A stretch of DNA of 64,000 bases, taken from NCBI RefSeq assembly GCF_003574295.1, contig NZ_BHGK01000001.1, positions 930,001 through 994,000 of the forward strand, given 5' to 3'. Position numbers and translations under genes: made by a program. The DNA comes from Mediterraneibacter butyricigenes (GTDB taxonomy: Bacteria; Bacillota; Clostridia; Lachnospirales; Lachnospiraceae). Positions 478 through 20,605 of this stretch are shown in pieces. The stretch's first letter is position 1; every line of letters begins with the position of its first letter. The notes under the pieces are model-generated. The model made no database searches. It was not told where the DNA came from and worked only from the letters and a program-made list of their open reading frames with translations.

Positions 478-791
478 ATCAACAGACAAATGCGATGAAC
501 AGGACACGACTTCCTATTCTGTAAGTGTTTTCAGAGAGTCTTCGGTTGGTGCGAGAAGACAGCATGAGAAAGTGAAGCCATCCCCTGCAAGCAGCTTGGG
601 CCAACACATTTTTACCAAGATTTGAAACGCCAGTAGTCCAAGCCGGGTATCTACCGTTAAAAGGATGCTCATTCACAGGATGAGACTAGAGCGGCCATAT
701 TGTTATAGGGCAAAAGAAGTGGTATCGCGGAGATTAGATTTTTAACCTTCGTCTTCTCATGGAGTAATCCAGGAGAAGACGGAGGTTTTTT
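478..791 (+). promoter_or_regulatory. T-box leader with terminator, probably tRNA-Ala responsive
   Basis: The leader carries the T-box hallmarks: a Stem I part with AGAGAG and GGTTGGTGCGAG at 531-555, the antiterminator T-box sequence GTGGTATCGCGG at 719-730, and a strong terminator hairpin (746-758 with 773-785) followed by six Ts. In the specifier-loop position GAA-NNN-A the triplet is GCC (577-579), an alanine codon. The UGGU of the T-box would pair with an A73-CCA end, as in tRNA-Ala. By family knowledge, uncharged tRNA would favour readthrough into the transporter gene. The specifier call comes from a by-eye alignment. Confidence 0.85.
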
Positions 792-4734: not shown

Positions 4735-4763
4735 TAGCCGCACAGCCTTCAGACTGCGCGGCG
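4735..4763 (-). terminator. terminator of the amine-oxidation operon
   Basis: On the minus strand GCCGCGCAG (4762-4754) pairs with CTGTGCGGC (4745-4737), followed by TATTTTTTT. It lies ~100 bp after the stop of the APC permease gene and would end that leftward operon. Confidence 0.8.
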
Positions 4764-4868: not shown

Positions 4869-6278
4869 CTATCTCCACAATCCTCTCCGTTTGCGGATCG
4901 TGTAATACATACTGTTCTCCATTGCCATGACTTTCTCGATTGGAACACTTTTAAATACCGGCATCTTCATTTTATATCGAATCCAGAAGAAGGAATAAAT
5001 TCCAAGCACCAGGAACGTAATTCCCGTCACCAGCCAGATCATATTGCGCTCCACCGGATCCGTAGAGATATTCCGAATCATATATACGGTTCCTGCAATT
5101 CCGATCAGCGGAAACAACGGTCCGCACGGAACCTTGAAGGATCTCGGTGCCTTCGGCAGCCTGTGCCGTAAAATCAGCACATCCATGTGTGCCAGAATAT
5201 AAGAGATCATCCAGAACACAGATCCCACCAGAATCAGGAATGAAATGGCATCCGAGGAGCCGTCACTCAGTGCGGCAAACACAAAGATGAACACACTGAC
5301 AAAGATCACCCCAAACCACGGCACTCCATGTTTATTAGTCTTTGCAAAAATCCGCGGCATCATGTTCATTTTGGCCATTCCCTGACAGATTCCGGACAGT
5401 CCGTTGACTGTTGAATTCTGGGTACTGACTACCGCCAACGCTGAAACGAAGGTCATCCAGATCTTTCCTGCATTTCCCAGAAGATTTCCTCCATAAAGCA
5501 GATGAGGTGCTGCCGAATTGGCCAGTTCACCCCATGGGGTGTAATTATGAAATCCAAGAACCATCACCGACTGCACCATACAGATCAAAGCCAATCCGAT
5601 CATCATACCAAGCGGAACATTTCTTCTGGCATTCTTTACATTTTTAGAAACCGGGATGACATATTCTGCTCCGATGAACAGCCAGAAAGCGACCGCTACC
5701 ATGGAAATCATGCTTTTAAAATTCACTGCCATGCTAAACGGCTGCTCTACCATCTTACCGGTTCCCATCCCTAACATTCCGATGATTCCCAGGATCAACA
5801 TGGAACCAACTAATAAAAATGCAACCAGATCCTGAATTTTTGCAAACATATCAACGCCATAAAGATTGGCAATCATCACAACCACCGTCATGATCAGGGT
5901 ATACATCAGGCTTGGGATCGGCAAATGGATTGTGGTCGCCATTGCATAGGCAAAGATCGAGGCTTCCACCCCGGAAGACATAATGTTACAGATCAGATAA
6001 CCTCCCACCATAGAGATCAGAGTCGGAAACGGTCCCATACATGCCAGTGTATACTGCGCCAGTCCGCCCGTCGTATTGGGCATCAATGCATTTAATTCCG
6101 ACAGAGATGCCACGGTCGTCATATTTAACAGACATGCGATCACCATTGCCCCGATAAAGACAACGCCAATGCTTCCGGCTCCCTGTCCCAGTGATACAAG
6201 ACAGCTTGTGGCAATAACCAGTCCTACCGAGATGGATACCACACTGCGAAGTCCCAGAGTTCTGTCTTTTTCTTCCAT
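4869..6278 (-). CDS. APC family amino acid/amine permease
   Basis: This is a 469-residue membrane protein with about twelve helices. It has the APC N-terminal substrate-binding helix (SVGLVIATSCLVSLGQGAG) and the consensus loop after helix 2 (LSELNALMPNTTGGLAQY). It probably imports the substrate of the neighbouring dehydrogenase, most likely an amino acid or amine. It is the last gene of the leftward operon, 20 bp after the PII gene, which suggests PII may gate the permease as GlnK gates AmtB. The substrate is an inference from context only. Confidence 0.88.
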   Translation of the reverse strand: MEEKDRTLGLRSVVSISVGLVIATSCLVSLGQGAGSIGVVFIGAMVIACLLNMTTVASLSELNALMPNTTGGLAQYTLACMGPFPTLISMVGGYLICNIMSSGVEASIFAYAMATTIHLPIPSLMYTLIMTVVVMIANLYGVDMFAKIQDLVAFLLVGSMLILGIIGMLGMGTGKMVEQPFSMAVNFKSMISMVAVAFWLFIGAEYVIPVSKNVKNARRNVPLGMMIGLALICMVQSVMVLGFHNYTPWGELANSAAPHLLYGGNLLGNAGKIWMTFVSALAVVSTQNSTVNGLSGICQGMAKMNMMPRIFAKTNKHGVPWFGVIFVSVFIFVFAALSDGSSDAISFLILVGSVFWMISYILAHMDVLILRHRLPKAPRSFKVPCGPLFPLIGIAGTVYMIRNISTDPVERNMIWLVTGITFLVLGIYSFFWIRYKMKMPVFKSVPIEKVMAMENSMYYTIRKRRGLWR

Positions 6279-6298
6279 ACTAATTCACTCCCGTCTGC

Positions 6299-6655
6299 TT
6301 ACAGTGCATCCACACCTTCATCTCCCGTGCGGACACGGATCACATTGGTAATATCATAGACAAAAATTTTACCGTCTCCGATATGTCCGGTGTACAGTTC
6401 CTGTTTGATCAGTTCTACAATCTCAGGAACCTTTGCTTTTTCTACCACAAGTGCGATCTGTTGTTTCGGGAGAAGTTCCATCTCATAATTTTCATCCACT
6501 TCATATTCCTTGGTTCCCTTTTCGATTCCGCATCCAAGTACCTGTGTCACCGTCATTCCGCGAACACCGGCCTTACTCAGCGCTGACTTTAATCCGTTAA
6601 ATTTTGACATTCCAGTAATAATTTCAATCCTTGATAATTCCATGTTCTTCACCAT
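6299..6655 (-). CDS. PII family nitrogen regulatory protein
   Basis: This is a 118-residue trimeric signalling protein of the GlnB/GlnK family. The typical C-terminal motif (TGHIGDGKIFVYDI, then VIRVRTGDEG) is present. The T-loop tyrosine before LLPK (NYEMELLPK) aligns with Tyr51 of enterobacterial PII. The N-terminus is unusual: MVKNMELSRIEIITGMSKFNGL lacks the common IxxP start. The start at 6655 has a GAGGG site and overlaps the AraC gene by 32 nt. A second ATG lies at 6643. It is not next to an ammonium transporter but to an APC permease, so its target may be that permease. Confidence 0.92.
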   Translation of the reverse strand: MVKNMELSRIEIITGMSKFNGLKSALSKAGVRGMTVTQVLGCGIEKGTKEYEVDENYEMELLPKQQIALVVEKAKVPEIVELIKQELYTGHIGDGKIFVYDITNVIRVRTGDEGVDAL

Positions 6656-7511
6656 TTCTGCCCTCGTTCCTTCCGGTGGATCTCTTTGTTTCCAGCTTTT
6701 CTTTTACCAGCTTTTTGTATTGTTCCAGCGTGGTCCCTGCAAACGCCCTGAAATCTTTCAGCATATGAGACTGATCATAATATCCGCAGTTCAGAGCGAT
6801 TTCTTCGCTGCCTTTTGCTTCCGGCGTCCCGGAAATTTCCGGTGTCCGGGAGATTTCCTGCAAAAACGCCTGAAATCGTACAAACCGTTCAAACTCCTTC
6901 GGCGAAATTCCATGGATCTGTTTAAAGATCCGCCGGATATACGCTTCGGAATATCCCGTCTCCCTGCTTAACATCTGAATGGAAATATTTCCATTGGTTG
7001 CGTAAATTCTCTGCCGCATATATTGCTCCAGTGTATGCGCACTGTCTCTTTGATTCTCTCGCTGATTCTCCGACAAATATCTCATCAAGATCTGAGAACG
7101 TTTTTCCACATCCTGAGCCGCTGCCAAAGACTCTGTCAGACCACTTCCGTAATCATTTTTATCAAGTTCCAGATCTGTGTTCACGATTTCCTGCATGGAA
7201 AGCATTTTGGGAAGAATGGATCTTCCCGGCAGGAATCTGGCTCCAAAATAATATCTGCCATCCTCAAATTCCCAGTCCTTTGCTTTCAGAACCGTTCCAC
7301 CGATCATTACTTTTACATCTTTTTCTCCGATTCCAAAGACAAGATCTGTACTCCCATCCGGTACTGCTTTAAAATTCTCTTCCTTTCCATCCTCTACCCA
7401 AAATTCATAGAAACTGGAAATTCCCATTCGCTGAATCATTCTTTCCTGATAATCTTCAGCCTCCATCTTCAGATATGGCTGTACCGGTGTAATCATTTTC
7501 TTGTCTTCCAT
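6624..7511 (-). CDS. AraC family transcriptional regulator
   Basis: This 295-residue protein has a C-terminal double helix-turn-helix (about residues 165-275). The conserved parts are SIQMLSRETGYSEAYIRRIFKQ and, after a proline-rich insertion (RTPEISGTPEAKG), the second helix pair EEIALNCGYYDQSHMLKDF. The N-terminal ~110 residues form a ligand-sensing part with VPDGSTDLVFGIG, as in regulators with a DUF6597-like domain. It lies within the amine-oxidation operon and is its probable regulator, perhaps sensing the substrate. The inserted segment between the two HTH units is not usual. Confidence 0.9.
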   Translation of the reverse strand: MEDKKMITPVQPYLKMEAEDYQERMIQRMGISSFYEFWVEDGKEENFKAVPDGSTDLVFGIGEKDVKVMIGGTVLKAKDWEFEDGRYYFGARFLPGRSILPKMLSMQEIVNTDLELDKNDYGSGLTESLAAAQDVEKRSQILMRYLSENQRENQRDSAHTLEQYMRQRIYATNGNISIQMLSRETGYSEAYIRRIFKQIHGISPKEFERFVRFQAFLQEISRTPEISGTPEAKGSEEIALNCGYYDQSHMLKDFRAFAGTTLEQYKKLVKEKLETKRSTGRNEGRNGEEHGIIKD

Positions 7512-7527
7512 TCTTTTTACTCCTGAA

Positions 7528-8655
7528 TCAGGCCATCTCCGGGCTGTCCCACAGTGGCAGTTTTATTCCGATTCCAAGCTTTTTCGCATTTCGATATACG
7601 GTGCCTCCCCAGGCGATATCCTCAACCGGCATTCCTCCGACGGAATAAACGATGACTTCCTCGTCATTCTCCCGTCCCGGATGTCTGTTCTCAATGATAT
7701 CTGCCAAGTCAATGATATCTTCTTCCTTGATTTTTCCTTCGTGTTTCAGATCTGTAAATTTGGTTCCGATGATCTGCATCTGCGGATAAGTCGGATAGGG
7801 ATATTCTTCCTCCCAGGCCTCATAGAGTTTGGAATTATCTACCACCAGCTTGCAGCTTGTCAGGAACTCATCGTCAAATCTGGCTGCCGACGGCATACTG
7901 ATCAATGCACCCTTCTTCACCCAGTCCCCATTGATATAGGGGAAAGAAGATACATCATCCTTTACCGTCGTTGTAAAACTGACGATATCACTGTCTCGGA
8001 CTGCCTCTTCCACCGAATCACAAATCTCAATGTGTTTGATCTGTGGCAGTTCTTCCCGGATAAAACCGGTAAATGCATCCAAAGATCTCTGGCTTCTTCC
8101 TTTGATCTTCACCGTATCCAGATTCGGGCACACACTGACGAACGCTGCCAGTGATGTTTTTCCCATCACACCAGGACCAATGATCGAAACCACCTCAGAA
8201 TCCTTCTTTGCCAGATATTTTGCACCTACTCCCGGGATTCCACCAGTTCGGTAAGCACTGACCAAATTGGCTGACATCAACGCCAGCGGAGCTCCGGTAT
8301 CTTTGTCATTGAGCATCATCATCAGAATGGAACGGGGCAGTCCTTTCTGTTTGTTCTCTACATTGGAACCATACCACTTCATTCCTGCCATCTGATAATT
8401 GCCACCCAGATATGCCGGCATTGCCATAAATCTTCGGTCATCTGCATTTTTCGGCATTCCATCAAACTGGGGTTCATCCGGAAATGTGATCATACAGCCG
8501 TGGGAATTATGATTTGCGCCACCCATAACATAGTCACCTTTGTATAAAGTCACCAACATATCTTCCATCACTTCCACACAGGAAGCCATATCCTTCACAC
8601 CGGCTTTGATCATATCCGGTTCACTTAAGTATAAAAAATCAATCTTTGCACTCAT
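7528..8655 (-). CDS. ornithine cyclodeaminase / mu-crystallin family protein
   Basis: The product is 375 residues from the ATG at 8655, which has an AAAGGAG site 8 nt away. A GTG at 8664 overlaps that site and is less likely. The family fold is visible: N-terminal substrate part with MPAYLGG and GMKWYGSN, the basic residue segment SAYRTGGIPGVGAKYLA, and the dinucleotide motif GPGVMGKT at about residues 160-167. Relatives deaminate ornithine or reduce imino acids such as 1-pyrroline-2-carboxylate. In this operon it may process the imine or keto product of the dehydrogenase. The exact reaction is unknown. Confidence 0.85.
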   Translation of the reverse strand: MSAKIDFLYLSEPDMIKAGVKDMASCVEVMEDMLVTLYKGDYVMGGANHNSHGCMITFPDEPQFDGMPKNADDRRFMAMPAYLGGNYQMAGMKWYGSNVENKQKGLPRSILMMMLNDKDTGAPLALMSANLVSAYRTGGIPGVGAKYLAKKDSEVVSIIGPGVMGKTSLAAFVSVCPNLDTVKIKGRSQRSLDAFTGFIREELPQIKHIEICDSVEEAVRDSDIVSFTTTVKDDVSSFPYINGDWVKKGALISMPSAARFDDEFLTSCKLVVDNSKLYEAWEEEYPYPTYPQMQIIGTKFTDLKHEGKIKEEDIIDLADIIENRHPGRENDEEVIVYSVGGMPVEDIAWGGTVYRNAKKLGIGIKLPLWDSPEMA

Positions 8656-8792
8656 ATCTGTCACTCCTTTATGAATTTCCTGATCGGATACTCACTCCAG
8701 AGCCAGCGTAAGCCTGCAATCCCGGAATGTGCCTTTTTGCACTTCCAATGATCGGAAATGAGTATACCATAGATCATCACTTTTGTACACTA

Positions 8793-9941
8793 TCATATCA
8801 CAGCATGAAATCTGTCATATCTGAATTCTGAAAGATCCAGTGTCGTTTTTTCTTCCCGTGCCAGCTCACTGAGCAGTGTTCCTACGATTGGTGAAATTCC
8901 GAATCCGTGTCCTGTAAATGCACAGGCCGCGATCAGCCCCGGAACTTCTTCAATTTCTCCGATCACCGGAATTCCATCAATACACACATCTTCGTAGCCT
9001 GCCCAGGTTCTGACGATCTTCGCATCTGCAAGTTTCGGAATATATTTCATGATTCCACGACAGATACATGGAGCCGTCATTCCCGATGTCATGTTATGTC
9101 CGTTATCCTTATTGACTGTTTCCAGTCCGGAAGCTCCTCCAAATACAAAAGAACCGTGATCGGTCTGGTGTCCGTAAAAATCAGCATCTGCTGTTCCCAG
9201 CATCTGCGCAAACATCTTTGGCTCAGCCTCTGTTACCAGTGCTTCGATCAGATCATTGGACATCGGTATATCTATCCCTACTGTTCCCAGAATCTTTCGG
9301 CTGGCATATCCGGCTGCCACAATCACCTTTTCTCCTTCGTACACATTCTTTCTTGTCACAACCTGACGGATCTTTCCTCTGATTTTCCTTAATTCTACGA
9401 CCTCTTCTCCTGTATAAAATGCCACCCCAAGTCTTCTGGCTTCTCTGTAATATCCCAGAGTTGTCAGTAACGGGTTCGCATGACCATCTGTCGGACACCA
9501 GCTTGCGCCCGTTACTTCTTCGCTCAGGTATGGATTGATCGAACGCACTTCTTTTCCGTCAATCATTCTCACATCCAGACCACAGGCCACTGCCTTATCC
9601 GTCAATCCCTGGAGAATCTCCATATGATGTTTGGTCTTTCCAAGCCTTAAGTTCCCTTCTTTATGATATTCTACATTGATTCCGAGTTCCTCGGACAGGT
9701 TGGGCCATAAACGTTCCACTGCATACATGGCAAGCGGCAGTTCTCTCGGATCTCTTCCTGACTGTCTGACTCCCCCTCCATTTCGTGCGGAACCTCCGTT
9801 TCCGATGCTTTCATCTTTGTCAAGGACAATGACAGAAGTTCCTTTTTTTGCCAGATAATAGGCCGCCGCACATCCGATCACACCACTGCCTACGATAATG
9901 ACCTCTGCATTCTTACTCATTGTCCTCACCTTCTTTCGCAT
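8793..9941 (-). CDS. FAD-dependent amino acid/amine oxidoreductase, HcnC-like
   Basis: This 382-residue DAO-family flavoprotein has a dinucleotide-binding motif near the N-terminus (IIVGSGVIGCAAAYYLA), the SARNGGGVRQSGRD segment near residue 52, and a C-terminal FAD signature (VCIDGIPVIGEI, TGHGFGISPIVG). It resembles the small flavin subunit of HcnABC-type, octopine and D-hydroxyproline dehydrogenases. A start at the second ATG (MSKNAEV) is also possible. It overlaps the BFD gene by 29 nt, which supports a complex of the four neighbouring products. The substrate is likely a D- or secondary amino acid or amine. Electrons pass to the partner Fe-S subunits. Confidence 0.88.
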   Translation of the reverse strand: MRKKVRTMSKNAEVIIVGSGVIGCAAAYYLAKKGTSVIVLDKDESIGNGGSARNGGGVRQSGRDPRELPLAMYAVERLWPNLSEELGINVEYHKEGNLRLGKTKHHMEILQGLTDKAVACGLDVRMIDGKEVRSINPYLSEEVTGASWCPTDGHANPLLTTLGYYREARRLGVAFYTGEEVVELRKIRGKIRQVVTRKNVYEGEKVIVAAGYASRKILGTVGIDIPMSNDLIEALVTEAEPKMFAQMLGTADADFYGHQTDHGSFVFGGASGLETVNKDNGHNMTSGMTAPCICRGIMKYIPKLADAKIVRTWAGYEDVCIDGIPVIGEIEEVPGLIAACAFTGHGFGISPIVGTLLSELAREEKTTLDLSEFRYDRFHAVI

Positions 9942-10242
9942 AAATTTTCATTTCCAAAGGTCTCATCGGTGCTCTGGATGTAGCCGGTTCCAACAACGCC
10001 GGTGAAATTTTTAATTCCCTTGCAACGATTCCTTTTACCAGTTTCGCACAAGTCTGTCCCTGACACAGACCCATTCCGCAACGGAGGTATCTTCGGATCT
10101 CGGTAATGGTGAACATTCCGTCATAAACCGCTCTTCTGATCTCTCCTTTTGTCACCTCTTCACATCTGCATATAATTCTGTCGTCATCCGGTTCCGGAAT
10201 GTACTCCCCCAGATCTTCCGTTCTGTCATATATAGTTTCCAT
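9913..10242 (-). CDS. BFD-like [2Fe-2S] protein subunit
   Basis: This is a 109-residue soluble protein with the bacterioferritin-associated-ferredoxin-like [2Fe-2S] pattern: CRC at about residue 25 and CGMGLCQGQTC at 54-64. In HcnB-type proteins this module is often fused to the large flavin subunit; here it is a separate gene. It sits between the two flavoprotein genes, overlapping one by 29 nt and lying 15 bp from the other. It should relay electrons between FAD centres. Confidence 0.87.
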   Translation of the reverse strand: METIYDRTEDLGEYIPEPDDDRIICRCEEVTKGEIRRAVYDGMFTITEIRRYLRCGMGLCQGQTCAKLVKGIVARELKISPALLEPATSRAPMRPLEMKIYAKEGEDNE

Positions 10243-10257
10243 GTTATCCCCTCCGTC

Positions 10258-11844
10258 CTATTTTGCCTTATAAAATCTTGCTTTCATCGCCATGTCTGCC
10301 GGTACTTTGATAGTCAGCAGATTGGTATGGTCAAAGGCTTTCGCACTTTTCACCGAAACTACTTCTGCCTCACAGACTTTCTGTCCATCTCTTCCAAGAC
10401 CATATCCTTTTTCTCCCACTTCCGGAAGTGGAAGAAATTCATAAGGAATCGTTACCGTCGCATATCCTGGTTCATAAGTCTCGTCTACCAGGAAAATAGC
10501 CTGTCCGGAGCAGGATGCCACGCACATTCCACATCCTACGCAAACTGCCTGATCATCCACTGCCGGAAGAGATGTAATATGTTCTCCGATCTTAATGCAA
10601 TGCTTCGGACATGCATCCTGACAGGGGTTACAGGGAATATTCTGGGTACATTCCATCACCGGATGGATTCCGACTTTGTGAGTCACGCCCGGAAACCGTT
10701 CGATCTCTTCATCGGTTACAAATCCTTTTTTCAAAAGATTCATGGATACATCGATTCCCTCTTCCGTCTTTTCGATCAGTTTGCCCCGGTTCTTCGGTGC
10801 AAACATTCCCTGTCTCAACCCTTCCAACGCTGCTTCATTTTTTCTGGCTCCTTCTTCCAATTCTGCATCTTCAATGTAACCCAGATAGTTTGCTGCAGCG
10901 ATTCCGGCAATTCTTCCTTCGATCATAGCGGAACTTGCTTCCTCGATTCCGGATACATCACCCGCTACAAAGATTCCTTTGATCGATGTCTCTCCGTATT
11001 CATCCACGATCGGAACCTGGCCGCCCCGTTTCGGATTATCTTCCATCTCACATCCTGCCATCTTCAGTAGCTGAGACATTGGAGAAAGTCCCACTGCCAG
11101 ACAAATGGTATCCACATCAAAATGTTTCTCTGTTCCCGGAATGAACTGAAAATGATTGTCCACTTCCGCAATCGTCACACCAGTTACATGGTCGCTTCCT
11201 TCTGCTTTAACGATCGTATGGGACAGATAGAACGGAACGCCTGTCCGTGCCACCTTTGCCGCATGAACACCATATCCGCCGATTCTCGGTGCTGCATCTA
11301 CCAGTGCAACCACATCGCATCCACACTGCTTTAGCTGAAAACTGACTACCAGTCCTACATTTCCGCTTCCCAGCATCAGAATTTTGTTGCCCGGTTTCAC
11401 TCCGTGAAGATTCATCATGGTCTGAGCTGCTCCCGCTCCGATGACACCCGGAAGTGTCCATCCTTCAAATGTCACCATATTTTCAGCAGCTCCTGTTGCA
11501 ATCACAATCACATCGCCTTTATAATGAAAGATTTCTTCTCCTCGTTTTACCGTGATTTCTTTTTCCTGATACATTCCGATCACAGTCGCATTCAATTCCA
11601 CCTCTACGCCCGCATCGTCTGCTTCTTTCAGTAACTCTTCTCCGATTACAAATCCACGGATCTTTGCTTTGTGTTCTTTGGATCCGAAAAATTTATGAAT
11701 CTGCTTGAACAACTGGCCGCCCGGCTTTTCATTTTCATCAAATACAACGACCTTCAATCCTCTTTTCGCTGCCTCAATGGCTGCGGACAATCCGGACGGT
11801 CCTGCCCCCACAACGATCAAATCATATCTTTTCATTTTTCTCAT
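10258..11844 (-). CDS. NAD/FAD oxidoreductase with ferredoxin domain, HcnB-like
   Basis: This 528-residue protein has an N-terminal FAD motif (VVGAGPSGLSAAIEAAKRG), a second Rossmann motif near residue 155 (ILMLGSGNVGL), and an FVAGDVSG segment near 295. A C-terminal two-cluster ferredoxin-like region follows (CNPCQDACPKHC at about 400-412 and CVGCGMCVASC at about 433-443). It matches the large subunit of HcnABC/octopine-type dehydrogenases, with the BFD module replaced by this 4Fe-4S part. It lies 3 bp after the [2Fe-2S] subunit gene. It probably accepts electrons from the small flavin subunit and passes them to NAD, ferredoxin or a quinone. Confidence 0.88.
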   Translation of the reverse strand: MRKMKRYDLIVVGAGPSGLSAAIEAAKRGLKVVVFDENEKPGGQLFKQIHKFFGSKEHKAKIRGFVIGEELLKEADDAGVEVELNATVIGMYQEKEITVKRGEEIFHYKGDVIVIATGAAENMVTFEGWTLPGVIGAGAAQTMMNLHGVKPGNKILMLGSGNVGLVVSFQLKQCGCDVVALVDAAPRIGGYGVHAAKVARTGVPFYLSHTIVKAEGSDHVTGVTIAEVDNHFQFIPGTEKHFDVDTICLAVGLSPMSQLLKMAGCEMEDNPKRGGQVPIVDEYGETSIKGIFVAGDVSGIEEASSAMIEGRIAGIAAANYLGYIEDAELEEGARKNEAALEGLRQGMFAPKNRGKLIEKTEEGIDVSMNLLKKGFVTDEEIERFPGVTHKVGIHPVMECTQNIPCNPCQDACPKHCIKIGEHITSLPAVDDQAVCVGCGMCVASCSGQAIFLVDETYEPGYATVTIPYEFLPLPEVGEKGYGLGRDGQKVCEAEVVSVKSAKAFDHTNLLTIKVPADMAMKARFYKAK

Positions 11845-11847
11845 CTC

Positions 11848-12180
11848 CTACTTCTGATTTTCAAATGGTTCTGCCGATACTCCATACTGTGTCTGAATCT
11901 TCATTCCCTCTTTTAAAGGAGTCACACAGGTTCTCACATTCGGAACTCCATCCACCACCATGACACAATCTGTACATCTTCCGATGGCACAAAAGATTCC
12001 TCTTGGTGTGTGCTCCTTCTTGGTGTATCTGTGGATCATGATTCCCGCTGCTTTCAGTGCCACTGCGATCGGTTCTCCCTCATATCCCTGGAGCTTCTGA
12101 CCGTCATATGTAAAATGAACTAATTTTCCCTTTTTAGGTTCTCCCAAAATCGGATGTTCCGTAATTCGTGTTCCCATCAT
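11848..12180 (-). CDS. [2Fe-2S] ferredoxin-like subunit, HcnA-like
   Basis: The product is 110 residues from the ATG at 12180 (or 12177), with a GAGGG site 5-8 nt upstream. The open frame continues to 12306 but that part has no ribosome site. A plant-type [2Fe-2S] pattern is visible (FCAIGRCTDC, later CVTPL). The sequence resembles the small HcnA/SoxA-like subunit. It is the first gene of the leftward operon, and the product likely forms the electron-transfer arm of the dehydrogenase. Confidence 0.87.
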   Translation of the reverse strand: MMGTRITEHPILGEPKKGKLVHFTYDGQKLQGYEGEPIAVALKAAGIMIHRYTKKEHTPRGIFCAIGRCTDCVMVVDGVPNVRTCVTPLKEGMKIQTQYGVSAEPFENQK

Positions 12181-15009: not shown

Positions 15010-16476
15010 TTATCCCTCTCGTCCAAAATTTGCAAGAAAAAAAGGTCTTTTCAGACCTTTCAGACTGTAGACAAAACACTTTTGGGCTCCCCTTTTTCCC
15101 TTCCTGGCTATCATCTTTGCCAGTTTTTTCAGATTCATGCAGGCAAACGTAAGCCCGACTTTCATTTCCATCCGGGCTTTTCCTATCATCTGTGTATAGC
15201 GGAATCCGTGGTTTTCTTTTGCTGTTCCGAAGAGGCGCTCTACGGTCTCTTTCCGTTGCGCATACACTTCCTTCATCCCAATCGTATGCCGGATATCCTC
15301 ACACTTTTCCATGTACGGCTCCCAGATATGCCGGGTCACTACCTTCACATGATCCCTGCTTTCTGTGCACTGCTTCAGGTATTGACATCCTTCACAGACG
15401 ATTCCGCAGCTCTTGTATTCCCGGTATCCGGAACGGTTCGTCGTATGATAAGCCAGCACCTGATCATTCGGGCATACATAGCAGTCAAAATATTCATCAT
15501 ACACATACTCGGCTTTTTTGAAAAAACCATCTTTGGTCATGGGGCGTTTATACGGTAGAAGCGGTATGATACCATCATCCAGAAGTAACTTTGCTATCGC
15601 TGGTGTTTTGTATCCTGCATCAGCTACCAGTGTCTGAATGCCAATGTCTTTTATCTTATCATACAGGGATTTAAATGTCCGGCTGTCATGCTGATTGCCG
15701 GGATTTACACTATAACCCAGAATCCATCCGTTTTTGTCACAGGCTGTCTGCACGAAATACGCAAAAACATTTTTATGCTCACCCTTTCGGAACCATCCGC
15801 TTTCCGGATCCGTTGTACTTTCCTTGACCGTTTTTTCTTCTTTTCCATCAGAGCTGCCACCACAGGAGGGGGGATCTTTGGGATCTTCCTTCTTTTCTTT
15901 CAGAGGCTTTTTCCCATGCGCTTCCCGGTCTTCGTTGATTTCCTTCTTTAACTGCTCTTCGAAGAACAGTGCTTCCTCATCTGCAATCCGTTTCCGCATC
16001 TTTTTGCTGTTTGCCCGTGCTTTTACATGGGTGGCATCCACGAAGACCTCGGAAGGATCGATCAGTCTGTATTTATAGCATTCCTGCAGGATACGGGAAA
16101 AGATCTGTTCAAAAAGATCAGTATCCTTAAAGCGTCTGGTATAATTCTTTCCAAACGTAGAGAAATGGGGAACCTTGTCCATCATTTCCAGACCGAGGAA
16201 CCATCGGTATGCGACATTGACTTCGATTTCTTTTACTGTCTTGCGCATGCTTCGGATGCCGTACAGATACTGGATGAATGGAATTTTAATGAGCATGACC
16301 GGATCCATACTGGGGCAACCATTGTCTGCACTGTATTTATCGATCACAAGTTCATAGATAAAACTCCAGTCGATTGCCTGGTCAATCAGGCGCAGCAGAT
16401 GATCCTGCGGAACAAGGTCATCCATGCAGAACATCTGAATCTGTTCTCTTTTCTTATCTGCATTCTGTGTCATCAT
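15010..16476 (-). CDS. IS1182 family transposase
   Basis: The product is 488 residues from the ATG at 16476, with a GGCGG-type site 8 nt away. It is a DDE transposase: D in VFVDATHVKARANSKK (about residue 150), D in LVADAGYKTPAIA (about 285), and E in ETVERLFGTAKENHG (near 430). The N-terminal IS1182 domain (DDLVPQDHLLRLID) and the C-terminal DDE_Tnp_1_6-like region (CNPND-type cysteines, MEMKVGLTFACMNLKKL) are full length, so the gene looks intact. I could not find matching terminal inverted repeats or a target duplication by eye, so the ends of the IS are undefined. Confidence 0.92.
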   Translation of the reverse strand: MMTQNADKKREQIQMFCMDDLVPQDHLLRLIDQAIDWSFIYELVIDKYSADNGCPSMDPVMLIKIPFIQYLYGIRSMRKTVKEIEVNVAYRWFLGLEMMDKVPHFSTFGKNYTRRFKDTDLFEQIFSRILQECYKYRLIDPSEVFVDATHVKARANSKKMRKRIADEEALFFEEQLKKEINEDREAHGKKPLKEKKEDPKDPPSCGGSSDGKEEKTVKESTTDPESGWFRKGEHKNVFAYFVQTACDKNGWILGYSVNPGNQHDSRTFKSLYDKIKDIGIQTLVADAGYKTPAIAKLLLDDGIIPLLPYKRPMTKDGFFKKAEYVYDEYFDCYVCPNDQVLAYHTTNRSGYREYKSCGIVCEGCQYLKQCTESRDHVKVVTRHIWEPYMEKCEDIRHTIGMKEVYAQRKETVERLFGTAKENHGFRYTQMIGKARMEMKVGLTFACMNLKKLAKMIARKGKRGAQKCFVYSLKGLKRPFFLANFGREG

Positions 16477-16626
16477 AGGAAACACCGCCTTTATTTTGAT
16501 ACTTTCATTTTGTGAGATTTATCGCAGTTCAAAACACCGTCGTAGCGCAATTCCTCACAAATTGACGTGAAAAATCCGAGGTAATGTGACAGGTTATAGA
16601 TTCTCGTCGATTTTGTGAAATAGCTG

Positions 16627-16816: not shown

Positions 16817-19800
16817 ATGAAAAAACGAATCCTATCAGGGTTGTTAGTAGCGGCAATGCTACTCGCATCATTGCCAACAGCCGCATTTGCGGCGGATGAT
16901 ACGAATGCTGAAGCACTTGACACCGGTGAAACCCAAACGATCCTACCTCAATCAGAGGAGGATGCGGAGCAGTCGACTGTCACCGCACCAAGCTATGAAG
17001 TATCTACTACAGCTGAACTCAGCAACGCGCTGACGCAGATTGCGACAAGAGCCGAGGATGAAGCGACCATTGTACTGAAGGCGGATGTAACGCTTCCCAA
17101 CGACGCTACAAGCGGATATATTTCATTTTTTGGTGCGAATGGCAAGCATATTACTGTGAAAAGCGACGAGGGAGAAATGAAGAAGCTCTCCTTTCCTTCT
17201 TATGGTGTTCTGACCGGTGACTGCACCTTTGATAATGTCAATGTGACCGGCAGCAGACTGTTCTGCAATGGCTATCATACAATTTTTACGGAAAACAGTC
17301 AGATCCATTTAAGCGAAACACTCTACGGCGGCGGCTACAAAACAACAGTAGACAGCACCTATGTGGTGATTGCCGCCAGCGGCTCTATCAACCCGTCCTC
17401 TTCTAGTGGTCTGCACGATGTGATCGGCGGCTCCTATCAAGGCTCCGTTGAGGGTGACACCTATTTGGAAATCACGGGCGATATTCAAATGCAGAGCGGC
17501 AACCATCTGAACCCCGGCTGCATGACGGGCGACGGCAGCAGCGGCGATGGCAGGGATGTGCCCGATGTCTATGTTGGCGGCAATGCTACGCTGATTTATG
17601 ACAACAAAAGTAGTACCGCGTCTCCTGCAATTGAAGGCACATACGGCTGCGAAATGAAGGGGGATGTTACTCTGGATGTTCGTGCAGGCTGTGTGGCGGG
17701 CATTGTCGGTACGGAGGAGCCGGTCGATAAATCCATCATTCGTGGTAATTTGCATATCATTGCAGGTAATCCTGCTTATGAGAATACCGATCGGATTCTT
17801 CGGTTAGGTAGCAACTGGCCGATTGTCGGCGCAGGTCATCTTTTTGCAGCCATGCCCGGTGCTGTGGGCAATTATGCCATCAATGGCAATATTGTAATCG
17901 ACACCTATGAAAATGTATGGGCATGGGACAAAGGAACTGAGCCCGACTCGTATGATCTGCCAAACATTTACGGAGCCCTGCGCGGTAACGTAGGCGGCAG
18001 CATTACGATTAACGTGCACGGCTCCCATGTGGAAGATATAACCGGGGCGGATCGCTCTAATGTTACTGGTAATGTAACGATCAATGCAGTGAATGCGGAG
18101 CTGAAAAATTCGTACTATGAAGATGAAGATTACGATGAAGGCGATATTTATGCAAATTACAGCAGTATAATCAATGGTAAATGCTCCATCAATGTGGATG
18201 GCGGCGATGTAAATATCATCCAACTGACAAACTTTGAGCAAATCAATGAAGGCTCTCAGATTACAATTACAGGCAGTCCGAAAATCCGCACTGGTGTGGT
18301 TTCTACTTCTAATTATGACACAACCCCGGAGAATGTAGCTGTTACGCTGACCGACTGTACTGCAACAATTCCGTTTATTCAATCATCCACGCATACCCAT
18401 GTGACCAACAATTCTGATGTGAAATTAAACGGCTTATGGCTCACAGGCAGTTTGACAGTTGACGAAGGCAGTATTCTCAAAACCGATGATTTAGACGATA
18501 TGGAACTGTCTGGCAATGTGGTCGTAAACGGTACATGGGAACAGCTTTTTACCAACAGCTCGAGAGCAGCGGCCTATGATGTCACGATTGAAGGGACGAT
18601 GACAGTTGGGACAGGCGGTAAATATATTGGTCACGGTTCAACTCATGTTGCTGGTGATGTAAGTTCCTGTGGCATGATGGCGTTGATGAAGCCGTCTGAG
18701 TTTGGCGGGAACTATGCAGGCACAAACGCAGAGCTGCGCTTACCGGCAGTCGTGACGAATTACACAGCTGCTGATATCCCGTTGAAAATCGGCGGCCTTT
18801 CCACCGGCACCACCACGGTCAACACGGTGGACCCCACCAACTGGCAGACTCTGAAAAAGCCTGCACTTGGTGACAACTATATCCTCTCAAAGAAAAACAC
18901 AGACGCCCCCGCGCAGGATGTGTTTGTACTGGGCAATGCCGATGCCGTGGGAGACGGCTGGTTCCTCAAGCGCATGTCCGATGCCAATGGCTCGAACGAT
19001 TACTATATGTGGCAGGTGGCAAACGGTGTCCGCGTCATCTTCGACAAGAACGGCGGCGATACCGAAGCCTCTCCGCGTATTATGTCGCAGGAGAAGGTTG
19101 CAGGCAGTGCAAACCATTTTGACCTGCCGACGACCAATCCGACCCGTACCGGCTACCTGTTCAATGGCTGGAATACCAAGGCGGACGGTACAGGCGATGC
19201 CTTTACCGCTACGACCGATGTCAAAAATAATATGACTGTCTACGCGCAGTGGAAGCCGGATGAAGCGTATGCCGTTAAAATCGCACCGATGAACCTGACG
19301 GTTTATGTCGGCGGTGACGGCTATCACGGCGTGATCGGTGAAGATGGCAAGTTTGCTGCGAATGATCTGCCGGATATCGGTTTCTATATCACTCTGCCGG
19401 ACGATATTAACACAATGCTCGGCGGTACAGATGAAAACCCGGTTGATTTGAGCGACAAACTACGACTGACCTCTGACGACGACAACGGTACAATGCGCAG
19501 CTGGAGTCTGGAGCTGTACAGCGATGAAAGCAAGAGCCATGTTATGGAGAACGGACGTCGGGTCTATATCTACAAGCTCCGCCAGATCGACGACGGCGAG
19601 GAGACCGTCCCCCGCGTACAGTTCACCGGTGCGGACGGCTCGGTCATGACTGAATCGAAGTTTCAGGCGCTGCTCACCGACCAGTTCCGCAACTACAAGA
19701 TCAGCGTGTATCAGGGTCTGCTGGATGAACAGATATACAAGGCGACTTTAACCGCGGATGGCCAGACCTTCACCCGTCCAATCAAGCTGGGCACTGGCAC

Positions 19801-20605
19801 GCTGAAGGTCCGCGGCAACAATGATACGACTTATCGTGCTATCGAGAACAACACGATTCCGAGCGTTAATCCGCAGGAAAAGGATATCATGCTTGTCAGC
19901 ACTGCACAGACAGACACGCAGTATTATATCAATAACAGCGGTATCAGCGCATCCTCTGACGGTGTAAAACTGATGGTCGATCACAGTCTGGATGATGCAC
20001 TTTTAAGTGCGTACATCAATCGAACCTCCAACACCGAAGGCAAGTATTCATATCAGTTCCGTTATCTCGATCTGGTTGATACCTCAAACGGCAATACCTA
20101 CGTTACCATGGGTGCTGGTCAGAAAATGAACCTGTACTGGCCGGTCCCCAGCGATGCAAAGTCAAACTCTGAGTTCCGTATCATCCACTTTAAGGGCATC
20201 GACCGCGACAGTGACGCTGATGTGAATGAACTTTTGACCACTCGTATTCCGGAGGAACTGACATGTGAAACGGTTACAATCGGCGGACAGAAATTCGTTA
20301 AGTTCGCAGTTGACTCCTTCTCTCCGTTCGCACTGCTATATGAAAAGGATACGTCTACGCCAACTCAACCATCCGGCGGCGAAGCTCCGAACCAGCCGGG
20401 CACCCCGGATACCCCCGTCACACCGAATCAGCCGAACACCCCGGACGTGCCGAGTAACCCCGGTACGCCGGATCGTACCCCCAAGACAGGTGATACGATG
20501 AATCTGGCGCTGTGGCTTTCCCTGATGGGACTGTCTTTGGCTGGATTGTTTGGTTCACTGATCGTTGTGAAAAAGAACAGCTATCGTGGCAAACGGATGA
20601 AATAA
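16817..20605 (+). CDS. large sortase-anchored surface protein
   Basis: This is a 1262-residue secreted protein. It has a signal peptide (KKRILSGLLVAAMLLAS, cleavage near AFA-ADD). A long region of about 650 residues is rich in beta-strand turns and Gly/Asn, suggesting a beta-helix adhesin. An InlB-type Listeria-Bacteroides repeat follows at about 745-815 (FDKNGGDTEASP, TGYLFNGWNTKADGTG, TVYAQW). Then come two further domains and a Pro/Thr-rich wall-spanning stretch. The C-terminus has a PKTGD sortase signal, a hydrophobic helix and a basic tail. Codon use favours GGC and CCG more than the flanking genes, which suggests transfer. The ligand is unknown. Confidence 0.88.
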   Translation: MKKRILSGLLVAAMLLASLPTAAFAADDTNAEALDTGETQTILPQSEEDAEQSTVTAPSYEVSTTAELSNALTQIATRAEDEATIVLKADVTLPNDATSGYISFFGANGKHITVKSDEGEMKKLSFPSYGVLTGDCTFDNVNVTGSRLFCNGYHTIFTENSQIHLSETLYGGGYKTTVDSTYVVIAASGSINPSSSSGLHDVIGGSYQGSVEGDTYLEITGDIQMQSGNHLNPGCMTGDGSSGDGRDVPDVYVGGNATLIYDNKSSTASPAIEGTYGCEMKGDVTLDVRAGCVAGIVGTEEPVDKSIIRGNLHIIAGNPAYENTDRILRLGSNWPIVGAGHLFAAMPGAVGNYAINGNIVIDTYENVWAWDKGTEPDSYDLPNIYGALRGNVGGSITINVHGSHVEDITGADRSNVTGNVTINAVNAELKNSYYEDEDYDEGDIYANYSSIINGKCSINVDGGDVNIIQLTNFEQINEGSQITITGSPKIRTGVVSTSNYDTTPENVAVTLTDCTATIPFIQSSTHTHVTNNSDVKLNGLWLTGSLTVDEGSILKTDDLDDMELSGNVVVNGTWEQLFTNSSRAAAYDVTIEGTMTVGTGGKYIGHGSTHVAGDVSSCGMMALMKPSEFGGNYAGTNAELRLPAVVTNYTAADIPLKIGGLSTGTTTVNTVDPTNWQTLKKPALGDNYILSKKNTDAPAQDVFVLGNADAVGDGWFLKRMSDANGSNDYYMWQVANGVRVIFDKNGGDTEASPRIMSQEKVAGSANHFDLPTTNPTRTGYLFNGWNTKADGTGDAFTATTDVKNNMTVYAQWKPDEAYAVKIAPMNLTVYVGGDGYHGVIGEDGKFAANDLPDIGFYITLPDDINTMLGGTDENPVDLSDKLRLTSDDDNGTMRSWSLELYSDESKSHVMENGRRVYIYKLRQIDDGEETVPRVQFTGADGSVMTESKFQALLTDQFRNYKISVYQGLLDEQIYKATLTADGQTFTRPIKLGTGTLKVRGNNDTTYRAIENNTIPSVNPQEKDIMLVSTAQTDTQYYINNSGISASSDGVKLMVDHSLDDALLSAYINRTSNTEGKYSYQFRYLDLVDTSNGNTYVTMGAGQKMNLYWPVPSDAKSNSEFRIIHFKGIDRDSDADVNELLTTRIPEELTCETVTIGGQKFVKFAVDSFSPFALLYEKDTSTPTQPSGGEAPNQPGTPDTPVTPNQPNTPDVPSNPGTPDRTPKTGDTMNLALWLSLMGLSLAGLFGSLIVVKKNSYRGKRMK

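Follow-up and report, generated by a model that had tools for sequence, protein, structure and literature searches.

Eight consecutive minus-strand genes (12180 to 4869) in a 64,000-nucleotide stretch of the Mediterraneibacter butyricigenes genome (contig NZ_BHGK01000001.1, positions 930,001 to 994,000; hereafter the window) make up what we lean toward reading as an operon for anaerobic amine catabolism, the uptake step of which is switched by a dedicated PII protein. Open reading frame (ORF) reading and a profile search of the window identified, in order of transcription, a Fer2-type [2Fe-2S] subunit, a flavin adenine dinucleotide (FAD)/nicotinamide adenine dinucleotide (NAD) oxidoreductase, a BFD-like [2Fe-2S] subunit, a DAO-family FAD subunit, a PF02423 (OCD_Mu_crystall) protein (“OCD”), an AraC-family regulator, the PII protein and an APC-superfamily permease. 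The genome carrying the operon is 3.03 Mb. From comparison with related loci, we consider it likely that the PII protein binds the permease through an altered T-loop and a conserved permease tail, and that this blocks uptake. In the mechanism that we propose, the PII trimer would read ATP/ADP, and perhaps 2-oxoglutarate; its acidic, altered T-loop would dock on the permease C-terminal tail, VMAMEN; and uptake would be shut when nitrogen is plentiful or when a low energy charge makes import wasteful. The block would resemble that of GlnK on AmtB, but on an unrelated transporter.

The PII protein and its linkage to an APC permease

The PII gene (6299-6655; probable start ATG 6643) matches PF00543 at 84.8 bits against a cut-off of 25, and its product belongs to the PII family by its nucleotide-site residues, T29, G37, G87-K90, R101 and R103, all of which are kept. 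The permease gene (4869-6278) matches PF13520 (AA_permease_2) at 102 bits (cut-off 27) and passes no NCBIfam curated cut-off. The AlphaFold model of the permease (predicted local distance difference test score 86.5) has an APC/LAT fold, and its structural matches to BasC, a bacterial CAT homologue and AdiC (Z 34-40) place it in the APC superfamily.

The same nucleotide-site residues are kept in 51 of 51 APC-linked PIIs, apart from one K for R101, and K58 is kept as well. In a tree built from 115 columns, with many open forks, these 51 proteins form one clade (support 100/100), apart from the PotABCD-linked and Amt-fused PIIs. Alignment located the T-loop region at 6464-6535 (minus strand), with E39 and V47 in E. 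coli numbering. Residue 47 is arginine in none of the 51 proteins (V in 36, I in 6, A in 4, L in 2, and M, S and P in 1 each), and Glu-Tyr stands immediately before it in all of them. Arginine occupies this position in 23 of 23 Amt-fused PIIs and 4 of 4 Amt-adjacent PIIs; the Amt part was verified in 21 of the 23, with L018 and L079 counted without a verified Amt part. We take Arg47 to be the T-loop arginine that enters and blocks the AmtB channel. One study gives Arg41 for that arginine (PMC8395244); in our alignment the E. coli sequence has Gly at position 41. A second change, Q39 to E, occurs in 34 of the 51 proteins (the window PII and 33 relatives) and in 1 of the 23 Amt-fused PIIs.

The only other PII in the genome is the C-terminal domain of an Amt fusion. 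We found no GlnD in this genome with a search that was positive in 3 of 14 control genomes, so the window PII is probably not uridylylated. The arrangement resembles GlnK-AmtB and the Amt-PII fusions in that a PII gene is directly joined to a transporter gene and the nucleotide-binding residues are kept. It differs in that the transporter is an APC permease, the T-loop lacks Arg47, the subclade of the window carries E39 and no GlnD was found. A canonical GlnK role was rejected, given the lack of an amt neighbour, the missing Arg47 and the separate Amt-fused PII. When 398 genomes of the phylum were searched with a profile that includes the window's own PII, the window scored 192 bits and the next match 142. 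Among the 29 other loci from this search, 22 had an Amt match and none an APC match, and the T-loop reads YRG in all 26 that were obtained. No PII-APC gene fusion was found among 31 PII loci (L002-L032), of which 6 have a separate APC gene (the window and five relatives), 24 have Amt and one (L018) gave neither.

We examined 80 named loci, the best 80 of 572 found with an OCD alignment. Three of them (L096, L102, L119) duplicate other sampled contigs and were kept in the 80 and left out of the trees and tail counts. PII is directly upstream of an APC permease in 39 loci and directly upstream of a PotA-like ABC ATPase in 13. It lies elsewhere in three (L073, where the contig ends after PII; L105, with one gene between; and L111, where it is fused to Amt); the remaining 25 gave no PII match, and contig ends cut several of these. 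The L111 fusion gene (6196-7902) sits within a cluster of peptide-type ABC transporter and OCD genes. Among the 37 loci with OCD identity of at least 68%, 30 have PII directly upstream, two have it linked and non-adjacent (L073, L105) and five lack it; four of these five stop at a contig end, leaving one true absence (L076). The initial annotation had named a PII gene unlinked from the operon in related genomes as the finding that would speak against its proposal. Among 145 genomes (own included), PIIs at least 60% identical to that of the window occur in five others, and all five adjoin an APC permease.

The candidate docking peptide VMAMEN (permease residues 450-455; 4914-4931, minus strand) conforms to the motif V-[ML]-[AM]-M-[ED], which is present in 48 of 48 PII-linked permeases with full cytosolic tails. 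Twelve of 14 permeases without a linked PII lack it. The count left out two permeases with cut tails (L058, L093), and L105 was counted as linked. Across 16 permeases less than 70% identical, K443, V450, M453 and E454 are invariant. Six of 461 six-residue blocks are equally conserved, VMAMEN among them, and many surrounding residues are among the most variable. The last long helix of the model stops at residue 437, and a short helix at 447-452 coincides in part with the motif; model confidence is lower in the tail.

A sample of 391 genomes, drawn evenly from the class, contained 10 permease homologues (E ≤ 1e-60) in 8 genomes, the window included. PII is directly upstream of six of these (the window, G468, one of two in G326, G488, G403 and G192). 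A DNA pattern for the motif, written before the permeases of this sample were seen, matched 52 of the 391 genomes, for the most part at sites other than permeases. Of the 10 homologues, it picked out 5 of the 6 that are PII-linked and none of the other 4. The sixth PII-linked permease, that of G192, has a tail reading VMMMES, and the non-linked G326 permease reads VIAMD. The gating of the permease by PII, as put forward in the initial annotation, thus gains from the upstream position, the tail motif, the T-loop change and the parallel pairing of PII with PotABCD described below; the binding itself is predicted from sequence.

A second PII clade is encoded directly before PotA of PotABCD-type importers inside OCD clusters, and PII-PotA pairs also occur away from OCD clusters (two in G018, and in G027, G055 and G014). 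The PII-linked PotA-like ATPases carry 15-24 extra residues at the C-terminus, in which a hydrophobic pattern is roughly shared, and the nearest ATPases without an adjacent PII (L237 and L238; 62-63% identical) have 6 and 2 residues in that position. In L065 the PII is divergent and the ATPase tail is different. Among 21 distant PotA-like ATPases (43-48% identical, PII status unchecked), 16 extend 1-13 residues beyond the TOBE column and the other 5 carry long unrelated extensions of 51-166 residues. Since some distant ATPases are also extended, the tail alone is no mark of PII. In L233 (6136-13922), PII lies between two PotA-like ATPase genes, followed by genes for a putrescine aminotransferase and for proteins like gamma-aminobutyric acid transaminase, Fe-alcohol dehydrogenase and AguA. 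The putrescine aminotransferases of L233 and L234 exceed the NF008570 cut-off and fall under that of TIGR03372, and L232 has a betaine/aminobutyraldehyde-type aldehyde dehydrogenase below the cut-offs.

Binding of PII to ABC ATPases is known from Synechocystis, where NrtABCD and UrtABCDE are controlled (PMC6603209). As in the PII-PotA module, nitrogen uptake via ABC ATPases is concerned; the cyanobacterial PII is one protein with many targets, whereas here clade-specific PIIs are encoded beside each transporter, and APC permeases have no ATPase. Our search of the open-access literature turned up no paper that pairs PII with an APC permease or with polyamine transport, nor did it yield a PII-like “PotN.”

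The predicted oxidative complex, the PF02423 enzyme and the likely substrate class

The gamma-like Fer2 gene (11848-12180; ATG at 12180, with the frame open up to 12306) matches PF13510 (Fer2_4) at 107 bits and adjoins the FAD/NAD oxidoreductase gene in most related loci. The latter, alpha-like gene (10258-11844) matches PF07992 (Pyr_redox_2) at 136 bits and has a C-terminal 4Fe-4S domain, the match to which is weak (PF12838, 27.4 bits against a cut-off of 27). The BFD-like gene (9913-10242; PF04324 45 bits, PF17806 39 bits) is followed by the beta-like, predicted catalytic DAO gene (8793-9941; PF01266 228 bits). The nearest solved relatives are sarcosine oxidase alpha chains for the FAD/NAD oxidoreductase and Pyrococcus 1y56_B for the DAO subunit. 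The initial annotation called the operon HcnABC-like, which holds at the level of domains and fails for the layout. Hydrogen cyanide synthase is encoded by three genes in the order HcnA-HcnB(FAD+BFD)-HcnC. It was rejected as an identity for the window complex, which has four genes, BFD as its own protein and a 4Fe-4S extension on the alpha subunit.

The complex has the parts of the flavin opine/proline/hydroxyproline dehydrogenase group, namely a DAO beta, a Pyr_redox_2 alpha, a [2Fe-2S] gamma and a BFD-type second [2Fe-2S] subunit. According to PMC4575208, flavin opine dehydrogenase is an OdhABC complex with DAO, FAD and [2Fe-2S] subunits. The window complex is like OdhABC and the D-hydroxyproline and archaeal L-proline dehydrogenases in its DAO beta, FAD alpha and [2Fe-2S] gamma subunits, as far as that source describes them, and unlike them in its separate BFD protein and the extended alpha subunit.

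The OCD gene (7528-8664; probable start ATG 8655) is not that of a true ornithine cyclodeaminase, which we rejected at 64 bits against the NF005762 cut-off of 350. The sole NCBIfam cut-off passed is that of PRK06199 (592 against 362 bits), “tyramine oxidase subunit B,” here no more than a name, for which the open-access literature search gave no paper. SbnB is the nearest solved relative. The AlphaFold model is closest to SbnB (Z 38.3, root-mean-square deviation 2.3, 326 residues aligned, 29% identity), so that among SbnB and other PF02423 imine reductases lies the best fold match, yet its score against the SbnB model, 177 bits, stays under the curated cut-off of 327. Sponge-type opine dehydrogenases fall within PF02423 (PMC4575208). 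Given that PF02423 includes opine dehydrogenases, and that flavin opine dehydrogenases share the DAO, FAD and [2Fe-2S] subunits, an opine-type two-step amine deamination is the route favoured here, in a putative direction and on a putative substrate.

In this route the PF02423 dehydrogenase would join an imported primary amine to a 2-oxo acid, as an imine reductase of the opine synthase type, and the four-subunit flavin/Fe-S complex would then oxidise the N-alkyl amino acid to an aldehyde and an amino acid. The amine nitrogen would end in an amino acid, without oxygen or pyridoxal phosphate, and AraC would probably respond to the substrate. We regard this pairing of steps as plausible, at somewhat less than even confidence. 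In the N-methylglutamate pathway of methylamine oxidation, an amine is likewise first placed on an amino-acid skeleton and then oxidised by a sarcosine-oxidase-like complex; the window would differ in using a PF02423 enzyme for the first step, if our reading is right. In L199 (8225-17440), an APC permease and Fer2-FAD/NAD oxidoreductase-BFD-DAO genes occur without OCD, and genes for glutamine synthetase-like, GATase and glutamate-synthase-domain proteins stand in its place. None of these three passes a curated NCBIfam cut-off, and the cluster resembles an N-alkylglutamate route.

Sister clusters with PotABCD, agmatine deiminase (AguA) and N-carbamoylputrescine amidase (AguB) point to polyamines as a substrate class. 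AguA and AguB genes occur within or next to five clusters of the PotABCD-OCD type (L062, L119, L125, L126, L133), of which L062 and L119 are one contig. They are located between two OCD genes (L125, L133), after DAO (L126) or on the opposite strand at the far end (L062/L119), and both L133 proteins pass their cut-offs. In L061 the PotA-like ATPase scores above the cut-off of the polyamine subfamily (376 against 356). Two further families recur, one of Fe-alcohol dehydrogenases in 17 loci and one of RidA-like proteins in 11; the L151 RidA-like protein is below its cut-off. In aerobes OCD adjoins DAO in three of four loci. In Azospirillum, OCD is beside DAO; in Ruegeria, a PF01042 (RidA) gene is between them; and the Gordonia rhizosphera locus has a copper amine oxidase, an APC gene and an N-methyltryptophan-oxidase-like enzyme over its cut-off. 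The substrate of the window copy most likely belongs to the polyamines or other short amines.

Alternatively, the operon could import and degrade a ready-made opine or other secondary amine. The NAD-linked PF02423 enzyme would then be oxidative, like the flavin complex, and PII would still control uptake. The Ti-plasmid occ operons, which join OoxA/B, ocd and an opine permease, and the flavin-dependent OdhABC are precedents (PMC4575208), and the relationship to SbnB also fits. However, PotABCD, AguA and AguB of the sister architecture would supply putrescine instead, and in the aerobic locus L127 the copy is accompanied by a copper amine oxidase. We consider a ready-made opine unlikely.

Possible targets of the PII protein

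PII could act on the enzymes or on AraC (6624-7511; PF12833 47 bits, PF00165 39 bits), tuning catalysis or transcription to nitrogen status, and its place before the permease would then be operon order only. The AraC and PII genes overlap in the window, and the Azospirillum brasilense PII GlnZ binds the putrescine-catabolic enzyme PuuA (PMC7646526). This seems to us quite unlikely, however. The gene orders around the pair vary (OCD-AraC-PII-APC, DAO-PII-APC-OCD, OCD-PII-APC-Fer2), and the PII-APC order almost never does, PII staying directly before the transporter. Because the rest of the operon varies while the pair stays, we tie PII to the permease and not to the oxidase; sensor and permease seem to have coevolved. 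Moreover, the PII-APC loci L055-L058 (of which L058 is a short contig) gave no AraC match, the PII-APC pair of G192 stands beside neither the enzymes nor an AraC match, and both the tail motif and the altered T-loop are in keeping with a membrane partner. The neighbours of this G192 pair are genes for urea carboxylase (1702 bits; cut-off 1304), allophanate hydrolase and the two urea-amidolyase-associated proteins, and the 18 kb of the locus contain no match to OCD or DAO; from this setting it appears that the PII-APC unit survives loss of the oxidase. That PII is a leftover or a general nitrogen sensor without a special partner is highly improbable, common though PII proteins are and often clustered with nitrogen genes, as its clade is separate, Arg47 is absent from every member while the nucleotide residues are kept, and the Amt-fused PII is available for the standard task.

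Several observations weigh against our reading of the operon. In Methanococcales GlnK the Gln39 side chain completes the Mg site of Mg-ATP-2-oxoglutarate and Lys58 binds 2-oxoglutarate (PMC8395244); 2-oxoglutarate sensing is in doubt because residue 39 of the window PII is E. One gene separates PII from the permease in L105, and L063 has a different PII 6 kb off and no tail motif. L066 and L076 hold the motif without a linked PII, and the motif expression is a wider form adopted with the data already in view; the stricter form had missed three linked permeases. All 12 motif-less proteins in a tree of 62 permeases fall to the same side of a 100/99 branch, so a single origin of the motif, by one change, is possible; in these sequence comparisons motif and PII link are not separable as independent events, and only three pairs are available for comparing independent co-gain. 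The polyamine evidence comes from the PotABCD architecture, whose PotD-like protein (L061) reaches 240 bits against a cut-off of 582, and an AguA query, run without a positive control, found nothing in the own genome. The aerobic OCD locus L132 (Gordonia jinhuaensis) has no DAO neighbour. In L109 (12105-14912), EutA and EutB (ethanolamine ammonia-lyase) lie between AraC and the Fer2-FAD/NAD oxidoreductase-BFD-DAO genes of an OCD cluster, which suggests that substrates may differ among loci.

A broader reading, rather doubtful as a whole, is that a distinct PII subfamily gates APC amine permeases, with an acidic T-loop lacking arginine acting on VMAMEN and Q39E leading to an ATP/ADP-only or altered 2-oxoglutarate response, and that a second subfamily gates PotABCD through the ATPase tail. 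On this view, anaerobic gut bacteria with an opine-type deamination shuttle would have co-opted PII two or more times to close off the uptake of organic amines.

Operon layout, neighbouring features and significance

The initial annotation described the eight genes as consecutive with overlaps, and this was borne out, the overlapping pairs being BFD/DAO and AraC/PII. The remaining gaps are 3-20 bp, except for 128 bp between DAO and OCD, within which lies a promoter-like site (8761-8789, minus strand) recognised by consensus only (9 of 12 matches, TG before the second hexamer). The scanned region holds 17 promoter-like sites; its shuffled versions average 14.6. Located 3′ of the permease is a strong terminator-like hairpin (4737-4762, minus strand) with a stem of 11 pairs, 8 of which are G-C, and a T run after it. 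Since the operon arrangement recurs in dozens of loci, we conclude that it is not due to chance.

Elsewhere in the window, a T-box leader (486-759, plus strand; RF00230, 95.6 bits against a gathering score of 93) is just upstream of a transporter ORF (886-2577), which we take to be CstA-like. A transposase-like ORF of 491 aa (15010-16485, minus strand) lies near the operon, and a predicted secreted protein of 1262 aa (16817-20605, plus strand) has a sortase-type C-terminus, PKTGD followed by a membrane segment; both were judged from sequence.

The literature consulted here describes uptake control by PII at ammonium channels and at the ABC transporters of nitrate and urea. If our reading is true, the APC-permease PII clade adds a transporter superfamily to the targets of PII, and the candidate docking peptide with the diagnostic T-loop would offer a clean test of how one sensor core is fitted to unrelated membrane partners. 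The enzymes of the operon suggest an oxygen-free route of amine deamination, and nitrogen and energy status would be tied to amine, probably polyamine, uptake in gut Lachnospiraceae.

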